This document shows, piece after piece, positions 4,750 through 38,217 of a DNA stretch of 42,414 bases. Made by a program: the position numbers and the translations under genes. Numbering within the stretch: the first letter of the stretch is position 1; every line of letters begins with the position of its first letter. The notes beneath the pieces are model-generated. The model was not told the DNA's origin and did no database searches. It was given only the letters and a program-made list of their open reading frames with translations. Origin of the DNA: a virus; IMG/VR virus record IMGVR_UViG_3300009537_000048, positions 1 to 42,414 of that record. One strand, 5' to 3'.

Positions 4750-4915
4750 CGGTTTCCTCTTCGTTCTCTAGCTTGCGTCTGATTCTCAGCCCGAGGGCTC
4801 GAGGCGTGTAATCGATTTGCGGCTCGTTGATGCGATACCAATTCCCATCGGAGCCGCGATACTCATCTCCGTCTCGAACAATTTCATCGAGGTAGACGTC
4901 ACGGTGCGTATTCAT
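4721..4915 (-). CDS. Hypothetical protein, 64 aa
   Basis: ATG 4913-4915 lies inside the end of the methyltransferase gene (17-nt overlap), in the coupled style of the operon. The frame is open upstream, but only as the antisense of the methyltransferase tail. The product is small and charged: DEIVRDGDEYRGSDGNWYRI, then a basic stretch (LGLRIRRKL) and an acidic tail (ENEEETDD). A small beta-hairpin protein is likely; function is unknown. Confidence 0.5.
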   Translation of the reverse strand: MNTHRDVYLDEIVRDGDEYRGSDGNWYRINEPQIDYTPRALGLRIRRKLENEEETDDTSNRSPE

Positions 4916-5714
4916 GGTTTGCCAGCCAGATCTCTGGCACCTTTCGATTCCCCTGGTTGCGAGTCCCCTTCTCAAGGATATTCCATCCAGGGTAAAGGTT
5001 GCGAATGAACCCGCAGTCATCGTAGCGGATCAGAATTCTCGCATTATTGAAATCATTGAGAAGTTCGGCGAGCAGAACGTGCTGAAAGGTCGTGAACGTG
5101 TATAGGTATGCATCGCCAGTCGTGTACCACGGCGGATCGGCGTAGATTCCGGATGTCGAGTTATCTCTTACCTTCGGAATCAAATGCGAGAATTCCATGC
5201 ACGTCCACTCGCAATTCTTCATGCAGGCAGCCCACTGAGAAAGCTCTTCCGCGGCCGTGTTGATTCTTGAAGCGTTGCTCCCTCCGGAATTGGTCATTCG
5301 GAAAGATGGTTTGGTCTGATCCGTCAGCTTCGATGTGCCACCGTTTCCGCCGCGGCCGACCCAGCACAGTGCCCAGTAGGCCCATGCAAGCTCTTGCCAT
5401 CCAGCGTGCTTATGATTAGTAACCAGGTGTGCGGCACGCATGATCTCTGATGGATGAGATAGCGTAGAGGAGCATTCGAGAATTAGTCTTTTAACTGGAC
5501 CATCACCGAATCGCCCACTGGCAACCTTGTAGAAGTTGATCGCGAATTCATTCAGGTCATTCGCCACGATCCGCTTGTCCTTCAGGAACGGCAGGATCGA
5601 CGCGCCACCAACGAAAGGGATCGTGATGTGATTGCACGACTGGAAGTAGGCAGCGATCTCTTCGGCGACCTGGGCATCGCTACCGAAGTACGACAGAGGC
5701 GACTTGGTTTTCAT
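4899..5714 (-). CDS. D12-class DNA adenine (N6) methyltransferase, Dam-like
   Basis: The 271-residue length is usual for the D12 (Dam-like) family, which transfers a methyl group from S-adenosylmethionine to N6 of adenine in a short DNA target. Visible motifs in order are the N-terminal PLSYFGSD (residues 6-13), the S-adenosylmethionine-site element FVGGAS (34-39), VANDLN (50-55) and the catalytic motif IV DPPW (193-196). Most family members have DPPY; the Trp variant is less usual but known among N6-adenine enzymes. The start ATG overlaps the stop of the winged-helix gene (ATGA). No cognate endonuclease is nearby, so it is an orphan methyltransferase. Probable roles are protecting phage DNA from host restriction or timing of packaging and transcription. 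The target sequence cannot be read from the gene. Confidence 0.85.
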   Translation of the reverse strand: MKTKSPLSYFGSDAQVAEEIAAYFQSCNHITIPFVGGASILPFLKDKRIVANDLNEFAINFYKVASGRFGDGPVKRLILECSSTLSHPSEIMRAAHLVTNHKHAGWQELAWAYWALCWVGRGGNGGTSKLTDQTKPSFRMTNSGGSNASRINTAAEELSQWAACMKNCEWTCMEFSHLIPKVRDNSTSGIYADPPWYTTGDAYLYTFTTFQHVLLAELLNDFNNARILIRYDDCGFIRNLYPGWNILEKGTRNQGNRKVPEIWLANHEYAP

Positions 5715-6276: not shown

Positions 6277-6738
6277 GTGGCAAAAAAGAAGTCGAGCGAT
6301 GACAAGCCCGTCAGCCTTGATGAAATGAAGGCGGCTCTCGCCTTGTCCGAGGAAAAGGCCAAGGAGATAGAGGCAGAGGAACAGCGTCAGGAAGATCAGA
6401 GGGCTTATGAGCGTGCATTGGAGCGACTTCCAAATCGTGCCAGCCCACTGAAGGAGATGGAATTCGTTCGCACGCATCCGGCAATGAGCCGCAAGGATCG
6501 AGGCGAAGAAAGGGTAGTACTCCAAGCGGCAGACATCAAGAAAGCCCCGAGCGTGTTCGCAGCTCAGCAATTGCAGCATTGGTGCAATAAGCCGGAGGAA
6601 TTCCACAAGCAGATGATCGGCCTGCAGCGGAAGAAGGTCGAAGCCGGTGAAGGCGATGAAGCCGTAGGTGATGACGGCCCGGCAGAAATCTCAAGAATCG
6701 ACGAGATGCTTCAGTTACTCGATGGATCTGTCAAATGA
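6277..6738 (+). CDS. Candidate small terminase subunit (TerS), 153 aa
   Basis: The gene starts at GTG 6277-6279, with GGAGGG 6 nt upstream; no in-frame ATG exists upstream. It ends overlapping the large terminase (ATGA). Residues ~15-60 form an acidic coiled coil (EEKAKEIEAEEQRQEDQRAY), then comes a conserved-looking core (LPNRASPLKEMEFVRTHPAM) and a helical segment (SVFAAQQLQHWCNKPEEFHK). Small terminases bind the phage packaging site as rings and hand DNA to TerL. Position and size fit that role, but I do not see a clear DNA-binding helix-turn-helix, so the assignment rests mainly on context. It is the first gene of the late operon. Confidence 0.5.
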   Translation: MAKKKSSDDKPVSLDEMKAALALSEEKAKEIEAEEQRQEDQRAYERALERLPNRASPLKEMEFVRTHPAMSRKDRGEERVVLQAADIKKAPSVFAAQQLQHWCNKPEEFHKQMIGLQRKKVEAGEGDEAVGDDGPAEISRIDEMLQLLDGSVK

Positions 6739-8741
6739 TCGAGATGCCGGAACTTTCCAACGAGCGACTGAGGCACAAGTACGTTCCGACCGATCTGATT
6801 CAAAACCTTCGGTTCCGCCGAGATCTGCTGATTCGCTGCGAGAATAGCCGCAAGTGGCGAGATGCGATCACGCAGGTTTGCCGCGAGGACGTGATCTTCT
6901 TCTTCAATTCTTTCTGCTGGTGTCTCGAACCGAGGCCGAGGTATTACGACAGAATCAGCAGAACAGTAATTTCCGAGATCGATGTGACGGAGGATATCCG
7001 ACAAGACCTGATCGAGATGCCAGCAGAGATTCCGTTCATCGCATGGGAACACCAGATCCCGCTGATCTTGCAAATTCAGGATGCGCTCGGAAAGCGAGAT
7101 ATCGGAGTAGAGAAGAGCAGGGGCGAAGGAGCGTCATGGATTGGAATTCTTCTCGCTGTCCACGAATGGAAGTTTCGGCGCCAAGCGACTATCGGTATGG
7201 TTTCCAAAGATGAGGAATCAGCTGACGATCCAAACGATCCGAACAGTTTGTTTTGGAAGATCGACTTCACGCTGAAGATGTGGCCGAAGTGGATGGCAGG
7301 AGAACGCAACGTACATTGGAAGCGAAATCTGAACCAGCACACTTTGATCAACCTTGTGACCGGATCATCGATCAGCGCCTATGCAGCTGTCGGAAATGTT
7401 GCCCGTGGTGGACGTGCAAGGTGGTTCTTTTCTGATGAGTTAAGCGCTTTTCCTCGCCCAGCAGACCGCGATGCTATGGCGGCAACACAGCACGTGACTG
7501 AATCGCGATTGGTCGTATCAACGCCGCTCGGAGCCGAAGGCGCTTACTACGACTTCATGCACGAACCGAGCAACAGGCTGAAGCTCGTTCTCGACTGGAA
7601 AGACAACCCAACGAAGAATCGAGGTCTGTATCGCCTGATCGAAGGGAAGCCGGTTGCCGATGATCCGATCAACAATCCGCTTCCACCCGATTACGATCCG
7701 CCATCGAACCGCGTGCTCGAGATGTACGGTCGATTGCGGCGAAGAGGATTCAAGCTCGAGAACAGGCTTCGCAGTCCGTGGTACGACAACGAATGTGATC
7801 GGGCAAGCGCCACTCCTCAGAACATCGCGCAGGAATTGGATCGCGACTACGGCGGCTCGAGCTATCGCGTGTTCCTGGATGGATTCTTTACCAAAGCCGA
7901 GCAACACTTGTCTCAGCCACTTAGTGTCGGTGACATCAACTTCGGCCTGGAGATTCTGGATCAAGTCCGGTTCGACACGGTCGACGGTGGTCCGCTGAAG
8001 CTTTGGGTGCCTCTCGATTCACTCGGCAATCCGATTCAGCGCCCATACGTGTTCGGCTGCGACATTTCATCAGGGACGGCAGGTTCGTACACGTCCAACA
8101 GCACGATCGTCGGATTCGATCAAGTAAGCAAGGAGCAAGTTCTCGAATTCGCGATCAACTCGATGCCTCCAGCACATTTCGCTGATTACTGCATCGCAAT
8201 CTGCAAATGGTTCCACAATGCGTTTCTGATCTGGGAGGCAAACGGTCCAGGGACGGCATTCGGCAAACAGGTCATGGAGAGGATGTACCCATCGATCTAC
8301 TGGCGTCGATCGCTCGATAGCCGCGGGAACCAGATGACCAAGAAAGCGGGATGGTGGACTGACAACAAGTCCAAGGAGATTCTGTGCAGCCAATTCGGGA
8401 TGGCGGTGACCACCGGTGAGCTGACTCTGCGATCGAAGGAACTGAAGGAGGAATGCGGCCGATACGTTCGCAAAGGTGACAAGATCATCAACGCCTTGGT
8501 CCAGAACGCCCCAGAGGATTCGACCGGCGCGAGCCACGGTGACCGCACGATTGCCGCTGCGATTGCCTATCAGGGATTCAAGGCCAGGCCATGCACGCAG
8601 TCTGAAACATCCTATATCAGTAGCAATCCACCCGAGGGATCGATGGCGGCACGGATGAAGGAGTATGATGAGCGGATGGCGAGGGAGCGAGCCGACGACG
8701 GCTGGCAGGGCGGCAAGACATTAGATTCTATTTGGGTGTGA
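6735..8741 (+). CDS. Large terminase subunit (TerL), ATPase-nuclease packaging motor
   Basis: TerL pumps DNA into the prohead using ATP and cuts it with an RNase H-like nuclease. The 668-residue protein shows the expected order: an adenine-binding region, a Walker A-like EKSRGEGASW (126-135), a Walker B-type WFFSDELSAF with D234/E235, and a coupling segment VSTPLGAEGA (261-270). The nuclease domain has acidic residues at D443 (GCDISSG), E501 (WEANGPG) and D603 (HGDRT). Length is somewhat above the family norm. It overlaps TerS by 4 nt and precedes the portal by 1 nt, so the three are co-transcribed and probably coupled. Confidence 0.92.
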   Translation: MIEMPELSNERLRHKYVPTDLIQNLRFRRDLLIRCENSRKWRDAITQVCREDVIFFFNSFCWCLEPRPRYYDRISRTVISEIDVTEDIRQDLIEMPAEIPFIAWEHQIPLILQIQDALGKRDIGVEKSRGEGASWIGILLAVHEWKFRRQATIGMVSKDEESADDPNDPNSLFWKIDFTLKMWPKWMAGERNVHWKRNLNQHTLINLVTGSSISAYAAVGNVARGGRARWFFSDELSAFPRPADRDAMAATQHVTESRLVVSTPLGAEGAYYDFMHEPSNRLKLVLDWKDNPTKNRGLYRLIEGKPVADDPINNPLPPDYDPPSNRVLEMYGRLRRRGFKLENRLRSPWYDNECDRASATPQNIAQELDRDYGGSSYRVFLDGFFTKAEQHLSQPLSVGDINFGLEILDQVRFDTVDGGPLKLWVPLDSLGNPIQRPYVFGCDISSGTAGSYTSNSTIVGFDQVSKEQVLEFAINSMPPAHFADYCIAICKWFHNAFLIWEANGPGTAFGKQVMERMYPSIYWRRSLDSRGNQMTKKAGWWTDNKSKEILCSQFGMAVTTGELTLRSKELKEECGRYVRKGDKIINALVQNAPEDSTGASHGDRTIAAAIAYQGFKARPCTQSETSYISSNPPEGSMAARMKEYDERMARERADDGWQGGKTLDSIWV

Positions 8742-8742
8742 C

Positions 8743-10557
8743 ATGACACGAGCATCAACACTATTCGGATCACACGTTTCCAAGACGCCTGTCTACAGCA
8801 AGACAGAGGCTCAAAACCCAGAGTTTCGTCTGAAGAATGCGATCGGATCGTCCTACCGCCAGCTGAGGCAATATCGAGTCGGTGTGCGGCGTCTGAACGA
8901 AGCCTACGCAGGTCCAGTCTACGGTGCGGAATCGAGCGGCGAGGACTATTCAGGCAAGCCGGAAAAGTTCCTGAATCTTCTCAAACAAGCTTTGTCGGCG
9001 CACATCATGCTGCTGGCGAGCAACAATCCGCAGGTTCTTGTGACGAGCCACAAGCTCGAGCGTCGACCATTCGCCAAGACATACCAACTGGCGATGAACA
9101 ATCTTCTCAAGAGGATCAACTTTCAGGCAACGATGGAACAATGGGTGAGAGACGCATTTATTTGGATGGGGATTGTTCGTGTTCACATGGCCGACAGCGG
9201 AAGGACGGTTCATGAGGGCGATCTCTACATGGATCCAGGCATTCCGTTTGTCTCGAACATCGCCCTGGACGACTTCTTCTACGACAGCAACGCAAAGAAG
9301 TGGTCTGAGTGCCAGTTTATGGGCGACCTGTATCGTCTTCCGGTGGAGACCGTCAAGAATTCCGGACTGTATTCGGGGAAAGAGGTGGATGACCTCCAGC
9401 CGACCAGCAAGTTCAGCGGGACCGAGGAACGAGTTCAATCTCTGTCATTCGGCTGGGAATTGCAGGACGACGAGCTTCAGCCTATGTGTGATCTGTGCGA
9501 TGTCTGGCTGCCGCGGAAGAAGGTGGTTCGGACATACGTCGTGAAGGCACGATCGACCGACAACCTGATCATTCACGGCGATCCGGTTGCTGAGAACAAA
9601 TGGACTGGAAGCGAGCTTGGACCGTACAAACAAATGCATTTCGACATGGTCAGCGACAACATCATGCCGCTGTCGGTCGCGGCTGATCTGTATCCGCTCG
9701 ACCGCATGATCAACAACATCTTCCGAAAGAACAATCACAAATCGCGCCGACTGAAAGAAATTCACCTGTTCACGCCAGCGGCAGAAGACGACGCAAATCG
9801 CGCGAAACGAGCCAGCGACGGAGATTTCATCCAGAGCAATGCCCCTAACGAGATCAACACGATCAAGACTGGTGGCGTCGATCCGGGGCTGCACGGCTTC
9901 ATGTTGAACGGCATCGATCTGTTCGATCGGATCGGCGGCAACCTGCCGGCAATCCTTGGCCTGGGAGCTTCGAGCGATACTGTCGGCCAAGAAAAAATCA
10001 TCGCGGCTGGAGCGAGCGGCCGGATGACACAGCTACAGGGCTACGTCGAAAAGCCACTGACTGAATGCATTAAGGACCTTGGATTGCTGTTGTGGAATGA
10101 CGAATTCACCGAACTTCCGCATCGTGTAGACATCGATGGGCTGCAGGGATTCTCCTACGACGCATCGTGGGTTCCAGGGAATCGAGACGGAGAATTGACC
10201 GATTACGATATGTCGGTCGACGTCTATTCGCTGCAGAGTCAGGGGCCGGGACAGCGATTGCAGGCGGTGAATCAATTACTCGGACAGCTTTACATTCCGC
10301 TGCTTCCGATGCTCCAGCAGCAAGGCGGCACAATCGACTTCCCGCGTCTGGTGCAATTCCACGCGGAGATGATGAATCTCCCAAGATTGACGGAAATCGT
10401 CACGTTTTCGACCCCTCCGATACAGAACGATGGGATGATGGGTGGCGGAAAGTCGCCAACCTCGACACGGAATTACGTGAGAGAGTCGGTCAGCGGCGGT
10501 CAACAGGGCGGTGCGCCAGACGCACAAGAATGGCTGAAACAGGCTTCACAGGCTTGA
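8743..10557 (+). CDS. Portal protein, 604 aa
   Basis: The portal forms the dodecameric ring at the capsid vertex through which DNA enters and leaves, and docks TerL and the tail adaptors. The product is long, mixed alpha/beta and lacks catalytic motifs, as expected. It has an N-terminal helical segment (LRQYRVGVRRLNEAY), a stem/wing region (ALSAHIMLLASNNPQ; FQATMEQWVRDAFIWMGIVR) and a C-terminal glutamine-rich helical barrel (LLPMLQQQGG). The start is 1 nt after the TerL stop. It is identified by gene order, length and general portal sequence character. The 67-nt gap after it holds a small inverted repeat (CTAAT/ATTAG at 10577-10592) but no gene. Confidence 0.85.
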   Translation: MTRASTLFGSHVSKTPVYSKTEAQNPEFRLKNAIGSSYRQLRQYRVGVRRLNEAYAGPVYGAESSGEDYSGKPEKFLNLLKQALSAHIMLLASNNPQVLVTSHKLERRPFAKTYQLAMNNLLKRINFQATMEQWVRDAFIWMGIVRVHMADSGRTVHEGDLYMDPGIPFVSNIALDDFFYDSNAKKWSECQFMGDLYRLPVETVKNSGLYSGKEVDDLQPTSKFSGTEERVQSLSFGWELQDDELQPMCDLCDVWLPRKKVVRTYVVKARSTDNLIIHGDPVAENKWTGSELGPYKQMHFDMVSDNIMPLSVAADLYPLDRMINNIFRKNNHKSRRLKEIHLFTPAAEDDANRAKRASDGDFIQSNAPNEINTIKTGGVDPGLHGFMLNGIDLFDRIGGNLPAILGLGASSDTVGQEKIIAAGASGRMTQLQGYVEKPLTECIKDLGLLLWNDEFTELPHRVDIDGLQGFSYDASWVPGNRDGELTDYDMSVDVYSLQSQGPGQRLQAVNQLLGQLYIPLLPMLQQQGGTIDFPRLVQFHAEMMNLPRLTEIVTFSTPPIQNDGMMGGGKSPTSTRNYVRESVSGGQQGGAPDAQEWLKQASQA

Positions 10558-12208: not shown

Positions 12209-13246
12209 ATGGCGTTGACACCTGATCAAGTAGACGACTTCGTTCAGTTGACGTTGAAGAATTTCAAGCGGTACAAGTGGACGGACATTTCGCTGCCGTT
12301 GCAGTTCTACACCGCGTCGAAGATGTTCGACGAAAAGAAAGTGACCGAAGCCGGCGGAGAACAAATCAGCTGGCGGATCAAAACGAAGAACACCGGAAAC
12401 GCGCGGAACACCGGGCTGTTTGCGGTCGACATCACGAAGGTCGAAGATGTTGCGACCGACGCGAAAGTCCCGTGGAGCAAAACCACGACGAACTGGTCCT
12501 ACGACATTGACGAGGACGGCTTTCAGAGCGATCGCGAAACGATCGTCCGCCTGCTTCAGATGCGAGAGCACGACGCTCTTTCCGATCTCGCACGGCTGAT
12601 GGAGGAGAATCTCTGGACGGCGCCGACAGGAACGACCGACACTCGGCCGATGGGAATTCCTTTCTGGATTCAGAAATCCAACACGACTCCGGCCGGTGGA
12701 TTCACCGGTGGTGACCCGGCAAACTTCTCGGCTGGCGCTGGTGGCGTGAGCGTTGACGACTATGCCCGTTGGAAAAATTGGTCATTCAACTACACGGCAG
12801 TTTCCCGCGATGACTTGGTGAAGAAGTTGAAGAAGTCGGTCGTCTTCACCGAGTTCCGTCCGCCAGTTCCGCATCCGGAAACGGGATGGGGGCAGACGGA
12901 TTACGAGATGCACACGACCTACGATGTGCAGGAGCCGTTGGAGCGGCTCGCGGAGACTCGCAACGACAACCTCGGCGCGGATGTGGCTCGCTACATGAAC
13001 CAAGTGGTGGTCGGCGGCATTCCTCTTGGATGGGTCCCGTACCTGCAAGAGAACGAGACATCGGATCCGATCTACGGATGCAACTACAGCGTGCTTCGTC
13101 CGTTCGTCAAGAAGAACGCCTTCATGCGTCGCAATCCGCCGAAGCAAGCGGCGAGGCAGCACTCGGTACGAGAGGTACATATAGACTGTTGGTATAATAT
13201 TTTGTGTACCAGTCGTCGAGAAACTTTCGTCGGTTACATCGCTTAA
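12209..13246 (+). CDS. Major capsid protein, 345 aa
   Basis: The start is ATG 12209 with a strong GGAGAAGAGAAG site. The length and order (directly after the scaffold) fit a HK97-fold coat protein. The N-terminal half contains E-loop-like and spine elements (ISWRIKTKNTGNARNTGLFA; REHDALSDLARLMEENLW). The C-terminal half ends in a typical coat pattern NPPKQAARQHSVREVHID followed by YNILCTSRRE. The last 60 bp are notably AT-rich (TATAATATTTTG) compared with the rest. No protease or fused scaffold is present. This is the most abundant protein expected in the virion. Confidence 0.85.
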   Translation: MALTPDQVDDFVQLTLKNFKRYKWTDISLPLQFYTASKMFDEKKVTEAGGEQISWRIKTKNTGNARNTGLFAVDITKVEDVATDAKVPWSKTTTNWSYDIDEDGFQSDRETIVRLLQMREHDALSDLARLMEENLWTAPTGTTDTRPMGIPFWIQKSNTTPAGGFTGGDPANFSAGAGGVSVDDYARWKNWSFNYTAVSRDDLVKKLKKSVVFTEFRPPVPHPETGWGQTDYEMHTTYDVQEPLERLAETRNDNLGADVARYMNQVVVGGIPLGWVPYLQENETSDPIYGCNYSVLRPFVKKNAFMRRNPPKQAARQHSVREVHIDCWYNILCTSRRETFVGYIA

Positions 13247-17802: not shown

Positions 17803-18302
17803 GCGTGAGAATTTACGGTCCCGATTCGCTTACTCTGCCGGCAGGAATCGGCGGAGACCGTCTGGATAGTGTTCGGATCAAGCGGGATGTGATCGCGAGT
17901 TCGCTTGGCGGCGGTCAGACGGCTCTGATTGGTATCTCTCGGGATAGCATTCCGCTGGCCGATGCGAAACGGATGGTCAATGCAGGAGCAACGATCTACG
18001 GTCTGGAAGTCTGGTTCGAGCTGGTCACTGCCGCGGTGCTCGACCGACCACATCCTCTGGCTCCCGATCGATCCCCGCGTCCGACCGAGACTTGGGCCGA
18101 ATACGGAGTCTTCGGTAATTCGCACGCTCCTGTTGGACCATTCAGCGGCAAGTATTACCGCAGCAGTTGTATTGGTGTGAGCGGTGAACCTCTGGAAGCA
18201 TCGCTATGGACGGATTGGATCGACAGCCCGCCATCTGGCGTTGTCGTCAAGACAGTCGATGAAGTGAGAACGATCTTTGACACGATCACGATCGGAACGT
18301 AA
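17799..18302 (+). CDS. Hypothetical virion protein, 167 aa
   Basis: ATG 17799 overlaps the stop of the LamG protein (ATGA), and its own stop overlaps the next ATG by one base (TAATG). It is therefore tightly coupled to the adaptor genes. The protein is beta-rich (IYGPDSLTLPAGIGGD; ATIYGLEVWFELVTAAVL) with a tyrosine-rich middle (GKYYRSSCIGVSGE). No family is recognised. Position between the fibre-like and adaptor genes suggests head-tail completion. Confidence 0.55.
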   Translation: MSVRIYGPDSLTLPAGIGGDRLDSVRIKRDVIASSLGGGQTALIGISRDSIPLADAKRMVNAGATIYGLEVWFELVTAAVLDRPHPLAPDRSPRPTETWAEYGVFGNSHAPVGPFSGKYYRSSCIGVSGEPLEASLWTDWIDSPPSGVVVKTVDEVRTIFDTITIGT

Positions 18303-18979
18303 TGGCACTTCACACACTCACTTACGATCAAGTCGCCAGGGAATTGGGACGTCGACTGCATGTCGGCGAAGATCCCGATGATTGGGATACGCTAACGTCT
18401 CAGCAGATGGATGACGTGATCTTGCGTGGGAGCCGGATGCTCTACTTCCCTCCTGCGACGATGATCTCTGATCAAGCACTCGTGAACCACAACTGGTCGT
18501 TCATCGTCGAATCGTTGAGCATGACGCTGAGCGATGCAACGACCTACAACGACTTGCCTTCTGACTTCGTTCGACTAACAGGAAAGCCGACGATCGCTGG
18601 ATCCGAATACCCGCTAGAGCCAATTTCCGAGGCGAAGATTCGAGCGTTGTCCAGCGCATCGTCCGGTCTTGGTGATCCGCAGTATTACCATATCCGTCGC
18701 GAGACTCCGAGCAGCGCCGATCTGCTGTATCAGATCGGAGTTTATCCGCAACCAGTTGGCGACAAGACACTGACAGGCGAATACGTCTTCGATCCGACAG
18801 TGGCGTCTGAAGCTCAGGACCCGATCGTTCCGTCATGGGCAGCAGAAGCCTATCTTGCGGCTCTGTACTACGCTGGCGACATGCTTCTGAATCACCCAAA
18901 CGTCGACCCGAAGCTGGAGGAAAACTTCAAGGAGTTGTTGGCAGCGAGCATTCTTTGGGACAAAGGAATCAGCGGATGA
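18302..18979 (+). CDS. Tail adaptor-type protein, copy 1 of a triplicated domain, 225 aa
   Basis: This protein begins with a helical segment (YDQVARELGRRLHVGEDPDD) typical of phage head-tail adaptors (gp4 of P22 and gp11 of T7 families). From about residue 61 it carries the pattern NHNWSFI...YNDLPSDFVRLTG, then DPQYYHIRRE and a beta segment ending LTGEYVF. The same pattern occurs twice in the next gene. The C-terminal helix (PSWAAEAYLAALYYAGDMLL) is the usual adaptor end. Adaptors bridge portal and nozzle. The start is coupled (TAATG), and the stop overlaps the next ATG. Confidence 0.7.
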   Translation: MALHTLTYDQVARELGRRLHVGEDPDDWDTLTSQQMDDVILRGSRMLYFPPATMISDQALVNHNWSFIVESLSMTLSDATTYNDLPSDFVRLTGKPTIAGSEYPLEPISEAKIRALSSASSGLGDPQYYHIRRETPSSADLLYQIGVYPQPVGDKTLTGEYVFDPTVASEAQDPIVPSWAAEAYLAALYYAGDMLLNHPNVDPKLEENFKELLAASILWDKGISG

Positions 18980-20622
18980 TCATCAATCAAGTCTTCAATA
19001 CGGTGGACGTCGAATACGGCACCTACAACTGGCTGCGTCGTGAGGTCTGCTTACAGAATGGATTCGACGGCGACCACGCCCTTCTCGGCAAGTCAGAGCG
19101 AATGTGGATCGATTCGATCGTCGAACGCGGATTGATGCAATTCGTCAATGCCGAGTGGCCAACGGTTCCGAATCCTCCCGATACTCCGATCGGCGAAGGG
19201 CGTGAGCCCGACCAGATGCACGCCGAAGCGGCCAAGGAAATGCGTCGACGGCCACCACATCGCTGGTCGTTCATGCATCGAATCCACACGATCACGACAG
19301 TCGCTGGGACCTACGAATACGAATTGCCGGTAGACTTCGGCGGAATCATTGACGAACCGACAACGCGTCGTCAGGGAGGAAGGATAGCGATCGTCCGCGA
19401 ATCTCACATCCGACAATTGGTCGAATCGGACGGCGAGAGCGGTGACCCTCGGTACTGTGCCCTTCGCCGAAGCAACATCGGCGGCGCGGAAAGGATGAAG
19501 ACCGACTTGATTCTCTATCCCAATCCGGATGCCATCGAGACGATTTCAGTCGAATATCGTGCGAATCCGGAAACATTGAGTGATTCGATCCAGTATCCTC
19601 CTGGTGGAATCGAGCACGCGGAAACGATTCTGGCGTACTGCTTGATGGTGCTTGCCGAGCGGAAAGGGGAGATTGGAGAGCAGCACATCGCGCGGGTTCA
19701 GCAGCGTCTTGTTTCCTCGATCGTGCTCGACAAGGCCAGCGACAAGCCAACGGCCGATGGCGTCTGGATCGAGGATGACGGTCGATTCAATGCAGCCTGG
19801 CTGTCGCGGATGGTCGGTCGCCACATCGGAGCCGGGCCGAATCCGAAGGTCTGGACGCACGCGCAAGAGCAGCAGATCGCCGAGATCATTCGTCAGGCAC
19901 GCCGAAAGGTCTACAGCCCACCAGTGCTCCCAGGCGAAATCAAGTCGCACGACTGGAGCTTCCTGCGTCAGATCGGCCACATCACCACAGCGAGCGGTGT
20001 GTGGTCTTACGATCTGCCTCGTGACTTCGTCCAGATGTACGGCCCGGTGTTCTATAGCGGTGGCGGTGACGTCACGGACAGCGACGGGAACACGGTCGCG
20101 GTCGGAACGGTTCTGTATCGCGCCTTGCAGGTTCGCGGCGAGGCGGAACTGATGCAGCTTCTTCAGCGGCAGGAGGCATCGACGCGGCCGACGATCTGTG
20201 CGATTCGACCGAAGAAGTACAACGAAGCGGAAGGAAGTCGCTGGGAAATGCTCGTATGGGCGGTTCCCGATGGAGCGTATCCTCTTGAATTCAGGTATCG
20301 CGTCAATCCAGACACCAGCGTTCCGAATTCACTGCCGGCAATCGTCGAGCACCTCGACCTGCATGGCGGCGACCGATTCACATCGATGTACCTCGAAGCC
20401 GCGTTCATGTGTGCTGACTTCTTCATGGGAAAGAAACGCAGCGAGCACGAAGAACGATTCCTGCGCGAGGTGATTTCAGCGGTGGCTCAGGATCGTAGCT
20501 CATCATGCCCTGATTCTCTTGGCTACAATGCAGACTGGAGAGGAAACAGAGATGAATACGGCTATCGCGACCATCATGATCTAGATTCCAACGTGGTGAC
20601 GGTGAACGGAGCCATCTGGTAG
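18976..20622 (+). CDS. Tandem tail adaptor-type protein, copies 2 and 3 of the domain, 548 aa
   Basis: The start is ATG 18976-18978, overlapping the previous stop (ATGA); the upstream in-frame region is only the neighbour's antiframe. The protein is twice the usual adaptor length because the domain is repeated. Copy A (residues ~92-200) reads HRWSFMHRI..GTYEYELPVDFGG. Copy B (~322-450) reads HDWSFLRQI..GVWSYDLPRDFVQM. Each ends in a strand pair and xxEYRANPETL / FRYRVNPDTSV. Helical bundles with IEHAETILAYCLMVLAERKG and VEHLDLHGGDRFTSMYLEAA close the halves. It probably occupies the same ring position as two adaptors. The last ~45 residues are hydrophilic and poorly patterned. Confidence 0.7.
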   Translation: MIINQVFNTVDVEYGTYNWLRREVCLQNGFDGDHALLGKSERMWIDSIVERGLMQFVNAEWPTVPNPPDTPIGEGREPDQMHAEAAKEMRRRPPHRWSFMHRIHTITTVAGTYEYELPVDFGGIIDEPTTRRQGGRIAIVRESHIRQLVESDGESGDPRYCALRRSNIGGAERMKTDLILYPNPDAIETISVEYRANPETLSDSIQYPPGGIEHAETILAYCLMVLAERKGEIGEQHIARVQQRLVSSIVLDKASDKPTADGVWIEDDGRFNAAWLSRMVGRHIGAGPNPKVWTHAQEQQIAEIIRQARRKVYSPPVLPGEIKSHDWSFLRQIGHITTASGVWSYDLPRDFVQMYGPVFYSGGGDVTDSDGNTVAVGTVLYRALQVRGEAELMQLLQRQEASTRPTICAIRPKKYNEAEGSRWEMLVWAVPDGAYPLEFRYRVNPDTSVPNSLPAIVEHLDLHGGDRFTSMYLEAAFMCADFFMGKKRSEHEERFLREVISAVAQDRSSSCPDSLGYNADWRGNRDEYGYRDHHDLDSNVVTVNGAIW

Positions 20623-29754: not shown

Positions 29755-32700
29755 ATGGCCAAATGGACTGAACGCGCGAAGTCTGCAACATTGGAAGCGA
29801 TCGAGCGGGCGAAGGATATAAATCGTCGCATCGAGGAAGAACGCGGCAACGTCCCTGACAGCGCGATTCTTCGCAATCTCCGCGGTGTCGGCAAGACTTT
29901 GGCAGTTCGGTCGCTCGCTGTACCTGCGAAGCTCCTAGAGCCGGTTCTTCCGGGTGCAGCGGAATCTCTGCATCGATCGGAGCGAGCGACGCAGCAAGTG
30001 CTCGCCGAACGTGACCCAGAGACTCCGCTTCCGGACATCATCGAGCGAGGAATGCGAGAGGCAGCCGTCACGTTGCCCCAGATGGCTGTGCTGAGTCGAT
30101 TCGGAGGTGCTAAAGGAATCGTTGGTGGAACGATGGCGCAGGTGTTTGAGCGTGAATATTCCGCTGCTGTCAAACGAGGTGCGAGCCCACGGGTGGCATT
30201 CAAGTTTGCCGGCCAGCAATCCGCGATCGAGGGTGGTGTCACAAGTCTGTTCATGAGTGTCGCCCCTGGACTGGAAGGAATGTTCCTCAAAAGCGGTCTT
30301 TCCAAGGAAGTCGCAGAAGGAGGATTGAAGGGTCTGAGGAAAGGCGTCATAAGCGGTGCAAAGAGTTTCGGCGCTGAGCTTGGTGAAGAAGAACTGATCG
30401 AACTGGCTTCACTGGTCAATTCAAAACTGGCGGGAATGGATCCCAACGCTTCTCTGGAAGACGCCGAAGAGGTGGCGATGGATACCGCCGTCACGACATT
30501 CATTACATGGGGTGCAGCGAAAGGAATCCAAACTGCCGGGAATCGAGCCAAGCGACTTCGTAGCATCCAGGAAGAGATCGAATCGACCCCAGCTGATGTA
30601 GATCAAGGCGCGTTCGTCGACATCACCTACGAAGTCCTCCAGGACGTCGATGAGGTCGAAGTCGACAAGGTCACCAAAGCGCTCAACGATGCCGGCGCGA
30701 CAGCGGATCAGGTTGTCGAAGCTATCAGCACTGTCGTCGATCCAGAGATATCCGAATTCGAGATCAACGGCAACAAGATCCAAAAGCTGGCGCCGGAGGA
30801 ATCACGTCGTCGTCGCCAAGTGATCGAGGAAACCAAGCAGGCTGGCCAAGCCGAGGAAATGACTCCCGAGCAGGCCGCTGTAGCAGCACAGATTCTTGCC
30901 GAGGATGAAGGCTCCCCTGCCCCGGTCGAAGCTCCTCAGCCAACCCCTGCAGCTCCCGCAGTCGTCACACCTTCGCCGACCGTTACACAACCTTCCGATG
31001 CCATCGTCGCCGAAACACAGCAGGAAACAGGGAAACCGGCGCCCATTGAAACCAAGAAGCCGGTAGAAACGCCGACCCAGCAACCACCAGAGGAGGTCTA
31101 TTCTGGATACACGGTAGAGGTCGAAGGCGAAGCAGGGTGGTTCGCCCCAGAGGGAGAGCCAGAGGCAGTCGAGGTTGATGGTGAAGAGCACGAAGTCGCT
31201 TTCTACAACCCCAAGGAAAAGCAAGTCTCGTACTACGACGAGAACGGAGATGAAGTCCTAGTCGATCTTGTAGAGGAACCAGAACCAGAGGCCGCGCCGC
31301 CAGCGAAGAAGCAGCCCGCGCTCAAGAAACCGGCTGACGAGACTCCAGCGGCGCGACCTCCTTTCAAGATGCCGGAACCGTTGGCCAAGGCATCGCCGCG
31401 GTACGGCACTCAGCAACTCCAGTTCGAGTCCGACTACGATCGGGCTGCCTACATCCTTTCAAAGACAGGGAGACCAAGTGCGCAGCAGGCCAAATTCATT
31501 CGGGCACTCGAGGAACAAGGTCACACGATCGACGACGTTCGCCGTCACGGGCGCGAGGTGGTCAGACCTTACATCAAGCAACAGGGCGACACCAAGGCGA
31601 AGAACGTGTTGCGTGTGCCACGATCGGCGATTGTACCGCGGCCGATGGTTAAGCCCGAAGCACCTGCACCGAAGGCACCTCCAAAGAGCGTTGTCGGCCG
31701 GAAGCCCAAGAAGCCTGCGAAGCCTGCTTCCGAGAAGCCAAGTGTGAAGAAGCCGAAAGAGGAGAAGGAACCGAAAGCCGAGAAGCCCGAAACTCCACCT
31801 CAGGCGGAAGAAAAGCCTGATGCTGAAGTGCGTCCAGTAAAGGTGCTCAAGAAGTCTGTTCGGTTCGCACCCGAGACTGTTCTTCCGAATACCGTCAAGC
31901 AGAAGAAGGTCACTGTCCGCGGCAAAGAGTTCATCGAAGTTCCGAAGTCGGAAGTTGACAAGATTCCAGGGTATGTTGGTCCGGAAAAACCTGAGCCCAA
32001 GAAGAAGCCGCCGCAGAAGACTGTTCTCAATAAAAACGCCTTTGACGCTGAGAGCATCAAAGGAAACGAAATGGGAAAGAGAGCCTTGGTCATTGCCTTG
32101 GCAGCAGCTCGACCGGTCAGGTTTGTTGCAGCCAACGAAGGAGCCGAACCATTCATAGCGCAGTTCAGAAAGACTGCAAATAGCCTTGGCATCAAAGAAT
32201 CAGACGATGGAATCCCTGTCCCTGTCGAAAAGCCACCACAACGCGAGATAGATTCCAAATTGCTTGGAACTTCATCGCAGAACATTCTTGACACAGTGAG
32301 TGGGAAGAATATCAATGTTCCGACTGAGTTGGATAGAAATTCCCAAGTGCTACTCAAGGATGCTGTTGAAAAGTTGGCATTGAGCCAGGCCGAATCCAAG
32401 TCCATTCAGGACGTCGCTGGACATATCGCAGCTCTTCAAGATCACAGCGTCATACAAGCAGAAGACATTGCTGAGGCGATCAACCAGCTCACTTACGGAA
32501 GGACAGTTGATGAATCTGTGTCGGCGAAAGTCGAACAAGAAGCGAAGCCTGCAAAGAAGAAGCAGGCAATAAGAAAAGGGACGATCGCTGACAAATTCCA
32601 GAAAGCCAAGGATGAAACAGACGGTGCGTTCCTGCTGTTCAAGATGGGCGACTTCTACGAAATGTTCTATGAAGACGCTGAGTTAGGAGCCAAGTCGCTT

Positions 32701-35700
32701 GGATTGACTCTCACGACTCGTGATAAGTCTAGTGACAATCCAATTCCGATGGCTGGATTCCCTTACCATCAGCTTGATGCTTACATTGTCAAGCTTGTGA
32801 AAGGCGGGAACAAGGTTGCTGTCGTCGAGCAAGTTGACGATAAGGGCAATCCTATTTACGGGGAAACGGTGACACCTGCAAAGAAGTCTGAGCAAGGACT
32901 GTCCTCGGATGCAGAATCTGAATTGGCCAAGTTGATCGAGCGTTACGAAACACAGGCACGCAAAGATGAAGGTGGAGCTGGTATCGCTGTCGGTGCCGAG
33001 AACATCAATTACAGATGGGCTGCCGATGCCTTGCGTCACATGCGAGACAGGATGCGGGCTGGCGACTCTGTTGAGGAAGCAGCAGACTCTGCGAAATCCA
33101 AAGCGAGGGAATGGATTGACAAGCACAACAAGCGTCGGCCAAAAGATGTCAACTGGGCGCGTTCGGAAACCTCGGCTGATTCGTATATCACAAACGCTGT
33201 CCGCGTTTTGAGCAAGAACAAGAAACCAGCAAAGAGCGTTATTCCGAAGAAGGCAAAGAAAGACGACAAGGTGATTATCGGCAAGAAATCACATCTTGAC
33301 GATCAAGGTGTTGTCGAGAGAGCACTTCGTCGTGAACAGGAAAAAGGAAAGCCAGCCTGGTGGGATGGATCTCACCTCTACAGACTTGGCGGAAAGTACG
33401 AACTGACGACAGACGAAAAGGGGAGGCAGACGCTCAGGAAACTGCACAACCTATCCATCGGCGGTATCTTGAATCACTACCCTGGACCAAATGAACTCAT
33501 TTCCACAAATCAAGCAGCAATCGACGCCAAAGCTGAACTTGATGCAAAGGAAGCGGATAAGAAAAAGGCTCGCGATGAGAAAGCAGAAGCCGATCGAGTC
33601 ACCGCAGCCGAAGAAAACCAGCGAGTCCAATCTCTCGACAAGGACATTAAAGATCATATTGCTGTCGTCAAGCTGCGTGGCAAGAAGGAGAAGATCAAGA
33701 TCCTTCTTGGGGATCGGGAAACTGAGATAGAAGCGCCAGCGACGGTGTATGGAAACTTGGCTGTTCACAAGGGCGAAGCAGACAGCAAAGAACGTCAATG
33801 GAAAGTCGCTATCGTTCCTGCCAAAGGAAACATCACAGCGTTTGCGACGAAGAAAGAGGCCACGAATTTCGTGAAGATGATTCACGGCCTGTCTGACTTC
33901 AACATGAAGGACGCTGGAGAGTTGGTCGGCACTCCTGAATACGAGACGATGAAGCTTGCGGCTGCATACGCCAAGTTCGCCGGAATGAAGGTCGATGAAA
34001 TTCAGAAGTTAAGGGATGCATTGGTTGGTGTGACGACGGAAACCAAAAAGCCGAAGTCATCCAAGAAGAAGTCGGGCGACCGTCGTGCGAAAGCTCCAAT
34101 GCTGATTGCGAGAGCCGCCAAACCTTCACCATCGAAACCACAGGCAAAGGCCAATGTCCGAAAAGGTGGAATCGCCAGCAAGATTCAGGAGGATGGTTCC
34201 AATCGGAAAGTTGGTCGTCGATCGATCGCTGAATTCCTGAACAACGCATTCGGCGCTCACATGATTGTCACGACGAGCCAGACGTCCAGGAGTCATCCTG
34301 CTTTGATCCGCAATTCAGGATCGGTCATCTTCACGCGGAGTGGTTCATGGGATCTGAATATCCATGAAGCCGGTCACGCTCTGGACAGTATCCTCGAGTC
34401 TCAGAATCCAAACTGGTATTCCTCGATTGGACCAGAGCTGGAGGTGTTCGCCGCAGATCCAGTTCTTGCTCCGAATGCATCAGCTCCGACAGCAGAGGAA
34501 GGTATCGCTGAATTAGTTCGTCAGTATGTCACAGGACAGGAGACCGATCAGCAGTTGACCGATCGAATGATCGCCGCTGTCAAGCAGACCAGCCCGGAAC
34601 TGCACGCAACACTCGCTGACGCAAGGCAGGCTTACCGACTTCACCTGTCGCGACCGGAGCCAGAACGTGTAGCCGCTGACAGGAATGATCGTCCTGCTGT
34701 CGCCACTGCTGCCAGCCGCGCAGAAGAATGGTTCTGGAGTGCTCTCACTCATATCATCGGCAAAGGTGTGCTCAACCACAGGTATCGACGTCGATTGTGG
34801 AAAGCCGTAACCGGCGAATCAACGGCTGCGATGCTGGATCCAACTGGAGTGATTGGATCGATTCACAAGATGATGAGTGATGAGAAGCGTGCTCGCGACC
34901 AGATTGCGAAAGGTCTGCTAAACGAACGCCGACCTGACAACGTCGAGGTTGTGTACCAGAACAAAATAAGAACTTCGTCTGCCATTCTCCAAGCACTTCA
35001 GGGAAATGGGCTGACGCTCTACTTGTACGGCGATGGATTCAACGCGCTGTCGAAAGAGGATATCCGAAAGCTTCGAGACGCTGGCCTTCCTCTGCCAGAG
35101 AAGTTTGCCAAGCATGGCGAGCCGCAAAGGATCACAACGAAGTCGTTTGAACAGATCACCCAAGCGGTCGGAGACAAGAACTGGCAGGACTTTGAAACTG
35201 CCGTCTATGATCGAGTCGCCTACGAACGACACACGAAGGCTGGGCATGAATACCCTGGCATGGATATTCGATCTCCAGAAGACTTGAAGCGTGCATCGGA
35301 CAAGGCGTTCGAGGAGAACCCTGAATGGGAGAAACACTTTGATGATCTGCAAGAGTTCATGGCGCAGAATCTTCTCGTCGGCATGTTGGGTGGACAGTAC
35401 ACGGTCAATGAGGTCGTCGCGATTCACACGAAATGGGATGTGTACGCTCCACTTCAGAAGCAGATCGAGAACGCGGCGATGGGTGGTGGATCGCGATCGA
35501 CTGAGCCCGACTTTGGTGTTCGACGGGCTCGCGGCACAAGTCAACTGGAGTATCGGCCGCTGAAGGATTCCATCGAAGATCGCGTCAAGCAAGCGGTTCG
35601 CGCCTACACAGATAACGCGATGGCTCTCGCGGTTCGCGATCGGTCTCGCCGGATCGGAAGCGACAAGCGAATCGATTACAAAACTCGCCAGGATATCCAG

Positions 35701-38217
35701 CGGACGATGATCCCTCTGAATCTGGATCGAACAGTCGATGCTACGGTTGATCCGTTAATGGCGGGAGAAATCATCGCCGATGGCATCAACCGGAAGACCT
35801 TGGAGGAAAATGGGATATCGACGGAAGGCATGTCTCGCCGGCAGGTGATAGAGGAGCTGGAAAACCTTCCGGAGGATGTGTTTACTGCCCAGGACATTGC
35901 TCTGGCTATCCCAGGTCTCCCGACGATCAACATCTACGGACATAAGAAGCCGAACCTGCCTCGCGTGGTTGGTTTGTGGGAGAACGGACAGAGGAAGTAT
36001 TACCACGTCGCTGATCCTATGAATTTCGCGATGTTCGTGGAAACAGGTGGTCAGGATGCTTTGCTCAATCATGTGACGAACGTGCTTGGAAATCTCGCCG
36101 AGCCGTGGAAGCGAGCCTATACAGAGGCTCTCAAGTTTGCCATCCGAAACTTCCCTCGCGATGTCATCACGGCTTCATTCAATGCGGACACGGTTCGTGG
36201 ATCGATTCCAGGATACTACGCTTGTCTCGCGACACTGGAGATGATTACCGGAGGAACCTACATTCAGGAGGCCAGGGAAGCAGCCAAAATGATGGCCAGG
36301 TCATTCGACGCAACGACAGGCCATGATCATTACTCCCGGTGGCAAAACTTCACGGCCATGGTGGCTGAAGGGATCAAGGATAAGCATCACTACAACATGA
36401 CGTTCACTGAATGGCTGATTGCAGCTCCAGGTCGCGGTATGTCATTGGGGCTGAAGACGGTCGATATCATCAACTACATTACTGGTGGTCGGGCTCTTTC
36501 CAAATTCACTGAGTCATTGACACGCGAAGGCGCCTACATCGACGCCAGACGACGAGGACTGGATCAGGCGACCGCACACCGTAAGTTTGACCTCAGCTCT
36601 GGAAACTTTGCTCAGCGACAGGCGAATCGAACCGTCGCTGGATTCGTTCGCGCTGCTGGCTTTCTGAATCCGGCGTTGCAGATCATGTGGCAGAACTACG
36701 AAGCGATATCGCATCCAAGTCCTTCGCGTCGTCTGAGCCTGAATGCTGCGAAGGCGTCTTACATCAGCTCTTTGGCTGCGGCAGCTGCGGCAACCAACAT
36801 TCTTCTGATTCGCAGCCTGTTCGATGATGACGAGGCCGAAGAGATTCTCGAGAACATGCGTGAGACGCCGGAGAAGGAGCGACTTGGGAATGCGTCGATC
36901 ATGGGATGGTTCCGAATGCCATTCGATTACGGGATGGCTGGAACGCTGATGTCCACCGTCTGGAACGAAACGCAAGATCACATCCTCGGACAGCTTGGAA
37001 AGCCCGTCAACAAAGATGCAGTCGAAAGAGCCAAGGCGGTGATCATACGCGCGGCGAACCTCCCGAAGGCGGACAGCCTGATTCCGCCGAGCGTGAAGGT
37101 GGGAGTCGAGCAGTATCGAAACCGTGTAGAATACACGGATCGGGAAATCGTTCCGTCCTACATGCTCGATCGGTACGGTGAGAATCCTCAGTTGCAGTAT
37201 TTCTGGGACACGCCTGAAATCTACATGGAAATTGGAAGCGCTGCTGGAGTCAGCCCGCTAAGGGTGCAGCACGCGGTCAAAGGAATCATGACCTCAGTCA
37301 TCGACAGCACGGTTGTCTACTTGGACAAAGTCCACAAAGGTCGAGCGAAGTGGGCAGATTTCCCTCTGACTCGAGGACTGATTACATGGGAGCCGCGCGG
37401 CTTGAATTCCAGATCGGTTCAGACCCTGATGGACATGGATGCCGCACATCAAGCTCTCAAGATCGCCATCGAGAAGGACACCCGCCTATCGAAAGAGCAG
37501 AAGGACAAGCTTCGATCCAAGCGGGACGCCTTGGAGATGGCCAGCGAGACCATGAAATCGATCACGAAACTCTGGGACGACATCCGTGAAGAACGAAATA
37601 GCGAGACCCCAGATTACGACCGGATCGAGTCGCTCGAGCGTGAAATCCGCGATATCGCCTCCGAATTCATCAATGACGAGAAGATATCTCCTGACATCCT
37701 CGCCAAGACATTCGACGCTCAGATCGACCGCATGATGCCATACAAGCCGTCTGGGAGCCGTCTTTACAAACCCGGCAAAGGAGCACCAACAAAGCCTGAA
37801 GAGCCATCCAAGAGCCGCGCAGTGGCTCCTGACGCCTGGAATCAGTACGATCGCGACATTGAGGAATACCAGAATCGCCTGGAAATCTTCCGTGAGTCCA
37901 AGCAGGCAGCCCGTGGAGCGATCAGAGATCTCCTCGGCCGTCCGAAGGGATTATCGGCCGAAACGCTTCAGGCGATGCAGAAACGGCTCAGGACAGCGAT
38001 GAGCAGCCAATCTCGACCAAAGCCGCCTTCCGCCACGTTCAAGAGCCGGAAGGGCACCAAGAGCCGCTCAGAGCAGTACAAGGCTTGGAAGGAGTCATGG
38101 GATTCGTACAGGACGGCACGCGAGGAATTCATCGACTTCCAGCAGGAAGCGGCTGACATTCTGGAACGGGTTGAATCGCTGATCGACGTCCAGGATCTGA
38201 AGCAAGCATCGCCATGA
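29755..38217 (+). CDS. Giant internal virion protein (2820 aa) with ComM-like remnant, MutS domain I and zincin motif
   Basis: The start is ATG 29755, with AAGGTGA upstream. Domains by eye: ~95-260, a hydrophobic Ala/Gly-rich region typical of ejected phage proteins; ~375-470 and ~620-695, Pro/Lys/Glu linkers; ~549-615, a LQFESDYDRAAYIL domain common in phage polyproteins; ~763-921, a ComM/Mg-chelatase-like region (IKGNEMGKRALVIAL; LSQAESKSIQDVAGHIAALQ) whose Walker A loop is replaced by ANEGAEP. At ~944-1032 there is a MutS domain I with GDFYEMF (F967, E969) and PIPMAGFPYHQLDAY. A zincin motif HEAGH (1537-1541) is followed by EEGIAEL (1581-1587). Residues ~2115-2550 match the polyvalent-protein type (RNFPRD, 2131-2136; NPALQ, 2305-2309). 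A helical C-terminus follows. It is probably ejected with DNA. Confidence 0.8.
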   Translation: MAKWTERAKSATLEAIERAKDINRRIEEERGNVPDSAILRNLRGVGKTLAVRSLAVPAKLLEPVLPGAAESLHRSERATQQVLAERDPETPLPDIIERGMREAAVTLPQMAVLSRFGGAKGIVGGTMAQVFEREYSAAVKRGASPRVAFKFAGQQSAIEGGVTSLFMSVAPGLEGMFLKSGLSKEVAEGGLKGLRKGVISGAKSFGAELGEEELIELASLVNSKLAGMDPNASLEDAEEVAMDTAVTTFITWGAAKGIQTAGNRAKRLRSIQEEIESTPADVDQGAFVDITYEVLQDVDEVEVDKVTKALNDAGATADQVVEAISTVVDPEISEFEINGNKIQKLAPEESRRRRQVIEETKQAGQAEEMTPEQAAVAAQILAEDEGSPAPVEAPQPTPAAPAVVTPSPTVTQPSDAIVAETQQETGKPAPIETKKPVETPTQQPPEEVYSGYTVEVEGEAGWFAPEGEPEAVEVDGEEHEVAFYNPKEKQVSYYDENGDEVLVDLVEEPEPEAAPPAKKQPALKKPADETPAARPPFKMPEPLAKASPRYGTQQLQFESDYDRAAYILSKTGRPSAQQAKFIRALEEQGHTIDDVRRHGREVVRPYIKQQGDTKAKNVLRVPRSAIVPRPMVKPEAPAPKAPPKSVVGRKPKKPAKPASEKPSVKKPKEEKEPKAEKPETPPQAEEKPDAEVRPVKVLKKSVRFAPETVLPNTVKQKKVTVRGKEFIEVPKSEVDKIPGYVGPEKPEPKKKPPQKTVLNKNAFDAESIKGNEMGKRALVIALAAARPVRFVAANEGAEPFIAQFRKTANSLGIKESDDGIPVPVEKPPQREIDSKLLGTSSQNILDTVSGKNINVPTELDRNSQVLLKDAVEKLALSQAESKSIQDVAGHIAALQDHSVIQAEDIAEAINQLTYGRTVDESVSAKVEQEAKPAKKKQAIRKGTIADKFQKAKDETDGAFLLFKMGDFYEMFYEDAELGAKSLGLTLTTRDKSSDNPIPMAGFPYHQLDAYIVKLVKGGNKVAVVEQVDDKGNPIYGETVTPAKKSEQGLSSDAESELAKLIERYETQARKDEGGAGIAVGAENINYRWAADALRHMRDRMRAGDSVEEAADSAKSKAREWIDKHNKRRPKDVNWARSETSADSYITNAVRVLSKNKKPAKSVIPKKAKKDDKVIIGKKSHLDDQGVVERALRREQEKGKPAWWDGSHLYRLGGKYELTTDEKGRQTLRKLHNLSIGGILNHYPGPNELISTNQAAIDAKAELDAKEADKKKARDEKAEADRVTAAEENQRVQSLDKDIKDHIAVVKLRGKKEKIKILLGDRETEIEAPATVYGNLAVHKGEADSKERQWKVAIVPAKGNITAFATKKEATNFVKMIHGLSDFNMKDAGELVGTPEYETMKLAAAYAKFAGMKVDEIQKLRDALVGVTTETKKPKSSKKKSGDRRAKAPMLIARAAKPSPSKPQAKANVRKGGIASKIQEDGSNRKVGRRSIAEFLNNAFGAHMIVTTSQTSRSHPALIRNSGSVIFTRSGSWDLNIHEAGHALDSILESQNPNWYSSIGPELEVFAADPVLAPNASAPTAEEGIAELVRQYVTGQETDQQLTDRMIAAVKQTSPELHATLADARQAYRLHLSRPEPERVAADRNDRPAVATAASRAEEWFWSALTHIIGKGVLNHRYRRRLWKAVTGESTAAMLDPTGVIGSIHKMMSDEKRARDQIAKGLLNERRPDNVEVVYQNKIRTSSAILQALQGNGLTLYLYGDGFNALSKEDIRKLRDAGLPLPEKFAKHGEPQRITTKSFEQITQAVGDKNWQDFETAVYDRVAYERHTKAGHEYPGMDIRSPEDLKRASDKAFEENPEWEKHFDDLQEFMAQNLLVGMLGGQYTVNEVVAIHTKWDVYAPLQKQIENAAMGGGSRSTEPDFGVRRARGTSQLEYRPLKDSIEDRVKQAVRAYTDNAMALAVRDRSRRIGSDKRIDYKTRQDIQRTMIPLNLDRTVDATVDPLMAGEIIADGINRKTLEENGISTEGMSRRQVIEELENLPEDVFTAQDIALAIPGLPTINIYGHKKPNLPRVVGLWENGQRKYYHVADPMNFAMFVETGGQDALLNHVTNVLGNLAEPWKRAYTEALKFAIRNFPRDVITASFNADTVRGSIPGYYACLATLEMITGGTYIQEAREAAKMMARSFDATTGHDHYSRWQNFTAMVAEGIKDKHHYNMTFTEWLIAAPGRGMSLGLKTVDIINYITGGRALSKFTESLTREGAYIDARRRGLDQATAHRKFDLSSGNFAQRQANRTVAGFVRAAGFLNPALQIMWQNYEAISHPSPSRRLSLNAAKASYISSLAAAAAATNILLIRSLFDDDEAEEILENMRETPEKERLGNASIMGWFRMPFDYGMAGTLMSTVWNETQDHILGQLGKPVNKDAVERAKAVIIRAANLPKADSLIPPSVKVGVEQYRNRVEYTDREIVPSYMLDRYGENPQLQYFWDTPEIYMEIGSAAGVSPLRVQHAVKGIMTSVIDSTVVYLDKVHKGRAKWADFPLTRGLITWEPRGLNSRSVQTLMDMDAAHQALKIAIEKDTRLSKEQKDKLRSKRDALEMASETMKSITKLWDDIREERNSETPDYDRIESLEREIRDIASEFINDEKISPDILAKTFDAQIDRMMPYKPSGSRLYKPGKGAPTKPEEPSKSRAVAPDAWNQYDRDIEEYQNRLEIFRESKQAARGAIRDLLGRPKGLSAETLQAMQKRLRTAMSSQSRPKPPSATFKSRKGTKSRSEQYKAWKESWDSYRTAREEFIDFQQEAADILERVESLIDVQDLKQASP

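Follow-up and report, generated by a model that had tools for sequence, protein, structure and literature searches.

The recognition domain of the bacterial mismatch-repair protein MutS (domain I, Pfam MutS_I) has been described as a DNA-binding domain of the polyvalent proteins of phages and conjugative elements, which are called its only setting outside MutS (Iyer et al., 2017, J Bacteriol; PMC5512222). The copies reported in that study derive from Bacteroidetes and Firmicutes, with about 80% accompanied by an ArdC-N domain, and were proposed to recognize short stretches of unpaired DNA in the incoming element; that paper makes no mention of Planctomycetes. Nothing further on phage MutS domain I was found in later literature, in a search that missed most subscription journals. 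Here, we describe a MutS domain I within a giant open reading frame (ORF) of the IMG/VR virus record IMGVR_UViG_3300009537_000048, the whole of which (42,414 bases) constitutes the window analyzed. Like the polyvalent copies, this domain lies outside MutS, in a multidomain protein of very large size encoded by a mobile element; in contrast to them, the window lacks ArdC-N, presents a podovirus-like late-gene setting, and has planctomycete MutS as the nearest relative of its domain. The window thus represents a known kind, polyvalent MutS-I, with a different architecture and probably a separate origin.

MutS domain I in a giant late protein

The giant ORF (29755..38217; all window coordinates are on the plus strand unless stated otherwise) encodes a polyvalent-type phage protein of 2820 residues, is open throughout, and sits after the structural cassette. 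The Pfam MutS_I profile (PF01624) matches residues 947-1030 (32593..32844) with 91.1 bits against a cut-off of 20.6, covering profile positions 6-89 of 113, with an E-value of 7e-26 when the whole protein is searched and of 7e-28 when the domain is excised. A preliminary description, made from the sequence alone, had recognized MutS domain I at 32584-32850, an interval that encloses this match; its residue numbering for the Phe-x-Glu motif was likewise exact. The GDFYE signature occupies residues 965-969, and within the motif F967-Y968-E969 (32653..32661), F967 aligns to E. coli MutS F36 and E969 to E38. A phmmer search of PDB sequences recovered E. coli MutS at 2e-19, ungapped across 81 residues. 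The chance expectation for one ten-residue run of the domain is approximately 4e-11 in a protein of such composition, and a chance match is excluded. In MutS, F36 and E38 stack on and hydrogen-bond to the mispaired base (PMC3848065), and mismatch discrimination is abolished by F36A or by changes at E38 (PMC3848065, PMC12292046).

Structure prediction, suggested in the preliminary description as a check, agrees with this assignment. The AlphaFold2 model of residues 925-1052, built on a 65-row alignment that contained true MutS rows, has a predicted local distance difference test score (pLDDT) of 84, exceeding 90 over most of the core. The top Foldseek matches in the PDB are all MutS proteins, with bacterial structures leading and MSH3 next (E 1e-9, probability 1.00; root-mean-square deviation 2.2 to 1ewq). 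Judged by sequence and predicted fold, residues 947-1030 are a genuine MutS domain I.

The absence of the remaining MutS domains, also reported at first sight, held up: no Pfam match to MutS_II-V (connector, core/lever, clamp, and Walker ATPase) was recovered anywhere in the 2820 residues. Because these domains are absent, the protein would be unable to run mismatch repair. It shares with bacterial MutS the sequence and predicted fold of domain I and the F-x-E motif, but has no dimer clamp, ATPase, or capacity for MutL recruitment. The giant also returned no Pfam match to ArdC-N (ArdcN), in contrast to a clear one in L183, a protein with the architecture of Iyer et al. (ArdC-N, metallopeptidase, and MutS_I).

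Several mutS matches in IMG/VR and INPHARED are plainly bacterial flanks or contaminants, and a bacterial mutS fragment might similarly have been joined to a phage contig during assembly. We consider this close to negligible in probability: approximately 940 and 1790 residues of a single ORF flank the domain in frame, no sampled MutS comes closer to it than 60% identity, and no other MutS domain is present.

Origin of the domain and its occurrence outside MutS

We gathered 182 MutS_I sequences; judging by record titles, 10 of the 11 best matches come from planctomycete MutS, at 52-60% identity. Because the MutS proteins entered this set through a GFP-type motif, the choice of those compared is biased. 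When 294 Planctomycetota genomes were searched, a subset reached 52-59% identity, whereas most others gave about 42-55% with clearly lower scores. In a 104-row tree, one group (Shimodaira-Hasegawa-like approximate likelihood-ratio support 94) unites the window domain, planctomycete MutS, and a pair of tiny phage proteins, and Bacteroidota-type solo domains are nested within Bacteroidota MutS. Constraining the window domain to group with planctomycete MutS gave a likelihood above that of the free tree (+13; approximately unbiased [AU] test, p 0.72), in tests that rest on 92 columns. Since its closest kin are planctomycete MutS and not the earlier polyvalent copies, the domain was probably captured independently from a planctomycete-type mutS gene; support from these alignments and trees is moderate. 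A common origin for all solo domains was disfavored (log-likelihood difference -33), yet not rejected (AU p = 0.10).

Two candidate markers were set aside. A PxMAGxP motif that reads GFP, and not GVP or GIP, does not mark polyvalent copies, as Bacteroidota, archaeal, and planctomycete MutS share it. Base composition was not taken to indicate a recent capture; the G+C content of the domain is low (2nd percentile), but so is that of its flanks, and its third-codon-position G+C is unremarkable.

Motif scans (GDFYE...GFP) and similarity searches together yielded several dozen non-MutS proteins containing MutS_I. Conservation of GDFYE in the resulting alignment (A3) was built into the search pattern and therefore not counted; nine copies found by similarity were used instead. 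Eight of these nine retain F-x-E (including variants NSFYE and GDFFE; two copies are near-identical), the sole loss being the polyvalent-type L257 (MT836722.1), which reads GEVYR and keeps the rest of the domain.

The copies occur in varied settings. Two giant clostridial-type phage proteins, L176 and L177, carry MutS_I near residues 940-960 of proteins of >2300 or 4124 residues, and in the L176 contig (G025), genes for terminase, portal, capsid, and an internal virion protein lie upstream of the giant. This phage is an independent case of a late-gene giant with MutS_I. The position of the domain in L176 and L177, and of the gene after late genes, resembles the window; these proteins differ in having methylase and helicase-like regions, a far more divergent domain, and no convincing similarity outside it. 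Further copies are found in conjugative-type proteins (L153 and L019), in a ParB-MutS_I fusion (L027), within a ParB N-terminal domain that MutS_I interrupts (L181, 3611-5572), and fused to a putative DNA-binding zinc finger near a ParB-like gene (L031:3119-3727). MutS_I lies at the C-terminus of similar-sized proteins in L027, L173, and L178, with ParB confirmed for L027 only.

In a further set of phage proteins, MutS_I is the only recognizable content. These stand-alone proteins are 86-105 residues long: L179:4302-4559 (86 residues), L028:2997-3260 (88), L032:9862-10146 (95), and L048:1651-1965 (105). Some copies of this stand-alone kind have already been annotated automatically in structure databases (BFVD A0A8S5PL02 and A0A8S5L9N2). 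Like the window, the stand-alone forms (L179, L048, L032, and the BFVD entries) occur in phage genomes with no other MutS domain; unlike it, they are tiny independent genes that, where context is readable, lie near DNA-metabolism genes. A DNA helicase gene overlaps at its end with L179, a primase gene precedes L040, and L025 lies approximately 2.3 kb from a DnaD-like loader. The stand-alone forms extend the statement of Iyer et al. (2017) that polyvalent proteins are the only setting outside MutS, and the recurrence of MutS_I alone at this size implies that the domain works by itself.

The neighborhoods of these copies bear on the possibility that domain I is retained for contact with the replisome, the clamp, or another phage protein, and not with DNA. 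Several solo copies adjoin helicase, primase, or ParB genes, and L257, having lost F-x-E and retained the remainder, suggests that DNA reading is not always essential. However, a domain serving purely for protein contact would have no need of the F-x-E motif kept in eight of nine copies, and we regard this explanation as quite unlikely.

Not all matches represent further cases. A single-sequence scan of viral contigs recovered host mutS only, mostly at contig ends, and matches in Acinetobacter plasmids (L012 and L018) are truncated mutS pseudogenes of about 150 residues, on plasmids with transposases and a hydrolase gene.

Proposed role of the domain

We propose that the captured planctomycete-type MutS domain I serves, within a late and injected giant protein, as a DNA-shape-reading module that docks on helically weak DNA, and assign this reading, whose delivery and docking steps we infer, a probability of roughly 55%. 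Its source would have been a mutS gene of planctomycete type, part of which was incorporated into the late-expressed polyvalent giant of a podovirus-like phage. That the giant resides in the virion and is ejected with the DNA, as the preliminary description had also supposed, is plausible given its late-gene slot and the giants of related phages. Binding of mispaired or branched DNA by the isolated domain, also suggested in that description, is plausible too. After entering the cell together with the phage genome, domain I, as one of several modules, would dock on mispaired, unpaired, nicked, or branched DNA. Through docking, either the whole giant or a fragment that its putative peptidase releases could be tethered to the phage genome as it enters or replicates; alternatively, docking might keep host enzymes away from such sites. 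Because the F36A variant of MutS retains binding to G-quadruplex DNA (PMC3437207), MutS may read several non-B structures.

Several observations weigh against this proposal. All 14 related phage records examined, several of them fragments, lack MutS_I, and the domain is therefore dispensable to the phage group. No close homolog of the 2820-residue giant was found in the collections searched. The candidate peptidase is represented by a motif only, HEAGH at residues 1537-1541 (34363..34377), a possible zincin metallopeptidase active site; no zincin domain around it was matched by Pfam in the 2820 residues, and its single-sequence fold reached a pLDDT of only 44. Finally, the clamp and dimer partner of MutS help hold DNA, and we know of no experiment in which isolated MutS domain I bound mismatches.

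The same combination of intact F-x-E and missing connector and ATPase would also suit a silent competitor of host MutS. An injected domain I might occupy mismatches or heteroduplex joints without recruiting MutL, and host MutS, whose blocking was also raised in the preliminary description, could then not abort the recombination or repair of phage DNA with related DNA; that its nearest relatives are planctomycete MutS, the likely host type, is consistent with such a decoy. However, the few injected copies would have to compete with MutS dimers whose affinity needs more than domain I, and several solo copies lie beside replication or ParB genes and not recombinases. No phage MutS decoy was found in the literature searched, which left out most subscription journals. 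We consider this role unlikely.

A broader possibility, put forward tentatively, is that phages have repeatedly and independently excised MutS domain I from host mutS, in Bacteroidota, Bacillota, and Planctomycetota lineages, as a free-standing sensor of DNA defects deployed in injected giants, in ParB insertions, and as 86-105-residue genes beside replication genes. The window would then be the planctomycete case, possibly a viral countermeasure fashioned from the host's own sensor. More generally, the case shows that the MutS mismatch-recognition domain is mobile as a module and has probably been captured on more than one occasion, which opens the question of whether domain I can find DNA defects without clamp, dimer, or ATPase. 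Phage proteins down to 86 residues in length that consist of little but domain I lend themselves to such a test and, if active, would be minimal binders of mismatched or unpaired DNA and possible inhibitors of host mismatch repair.

The phage, its relatives, and the rest of the giant protein

Genes for the terminase large subunit (6735..8741; PHROG 2, E 2e-17), an SU10-like portal protein (8743..10557; a weak Pfam SU10_portal match, E 2.5e-4, under the cut-off, but syntenic in relatives), the major capsid protein (12209..13246; PHROG 9953, E 5e-5), and an SU10-type adaptor (18835..20622; Pfam SU10_adaptor, 68 bits) all lie upstream of the giant ORF on the same strand, forming a podovirus-like late cassette. 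An SU10-type adaptor domain occurs in 18302-18979 and again, as two matching stretches, in 18835-20622, an apparent adaptor duplication. A D12-class DNA adenine methyltransferase is encoded upstream of the terminase on the opposite, minus strand (4899-5714). No terminal repeat was seen in the record.

Using the capsid protein as a marker, 35 viral relatives were identified at 51-66% identity. Those with enough flanking sequence carry giant ORFs of 4486, 2256, 2017, and >1400-1500 residues in the same slot, some with HExxH motifs and one with a weak GNAT match under the curated cut-off; none has detectable sequence similarity to the window giant. The largest (L228:602-14062, contig G011) contains two HExxH motifs and has no Pfam match above cut-off. 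The phage belongs to an uncultured podovirus-like group in which the giant-protein slot is conserved and its contents are swapped.

Such turnover, together with the lack of MutS_I in the relatives' slots, would be expected if the domain were a functionless host mutS fragment, recombined into a tolerant and rapidly reshuffled gene. Against this, the frame, hydrophobic core, and F-x-E motif are intact at only 52-60% identity to the nearest MutS, apparently long after capture, and the trait recurs across phages and conjugative elements; a neutral passenger therefore appears highly improbable.

A syntenic prophage was identified in a Planctomycetota chromosome (G415). For its terminase, portal, and capsid, identity is 32-33%; its giant ORF, approximately 1825 residues long and spanning two sequence pieces, contains HEYGH. 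This was the only such prophage among 392 Planctomycetota genomes sampled, with none in 399 genomes from the phylum of Shewanella or 396 from that of Flavobacteriaceae. The phage probably has a planctomycete host, though a single prophage is suggestive and no proof.

Within the giant, residues 847-910 (32293..32484), directly N-terminal of MutS_I, match the helical Mg_chelatase_C domain at a borderline 26.6 bits against a cut-off of 26.0 (PF13335, E 9e-6). This piece, resembling a ChlI/ComM-type lid, occurs without its AAA+ domain and, if the borderline score is borne out, may be a second torn-off fragment of a bacterial ATPase. With MutS_I and this borderline domain on a phage contig, in a portal-terminase gene context, the giant falls among polyvalent proteins as defined by Iyer et al. 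(2017), in which a zincin-like metallopeptidase is common but not obligatory.

Outside MutS_I, no homologs of the giant were detected in viral contigs or related phages (blastp, phmmer), and none in INPHARED except for a module of approximately 70 residues (531-602; 31345..31560). By tblastn, this module matches marine and cyanophage proteins, namely AP013547 (E 2e-8) and Prochlorococcus phage P-SCSP2 (2e-5), to which no function is assigned. A Kyte-Doolittle scan identified a sole strongly hydrophobic segment, at residues 2334-2357 (36754..36825), and the giants of three related phages likewise carry one a few hundred residues before the C-terminus.

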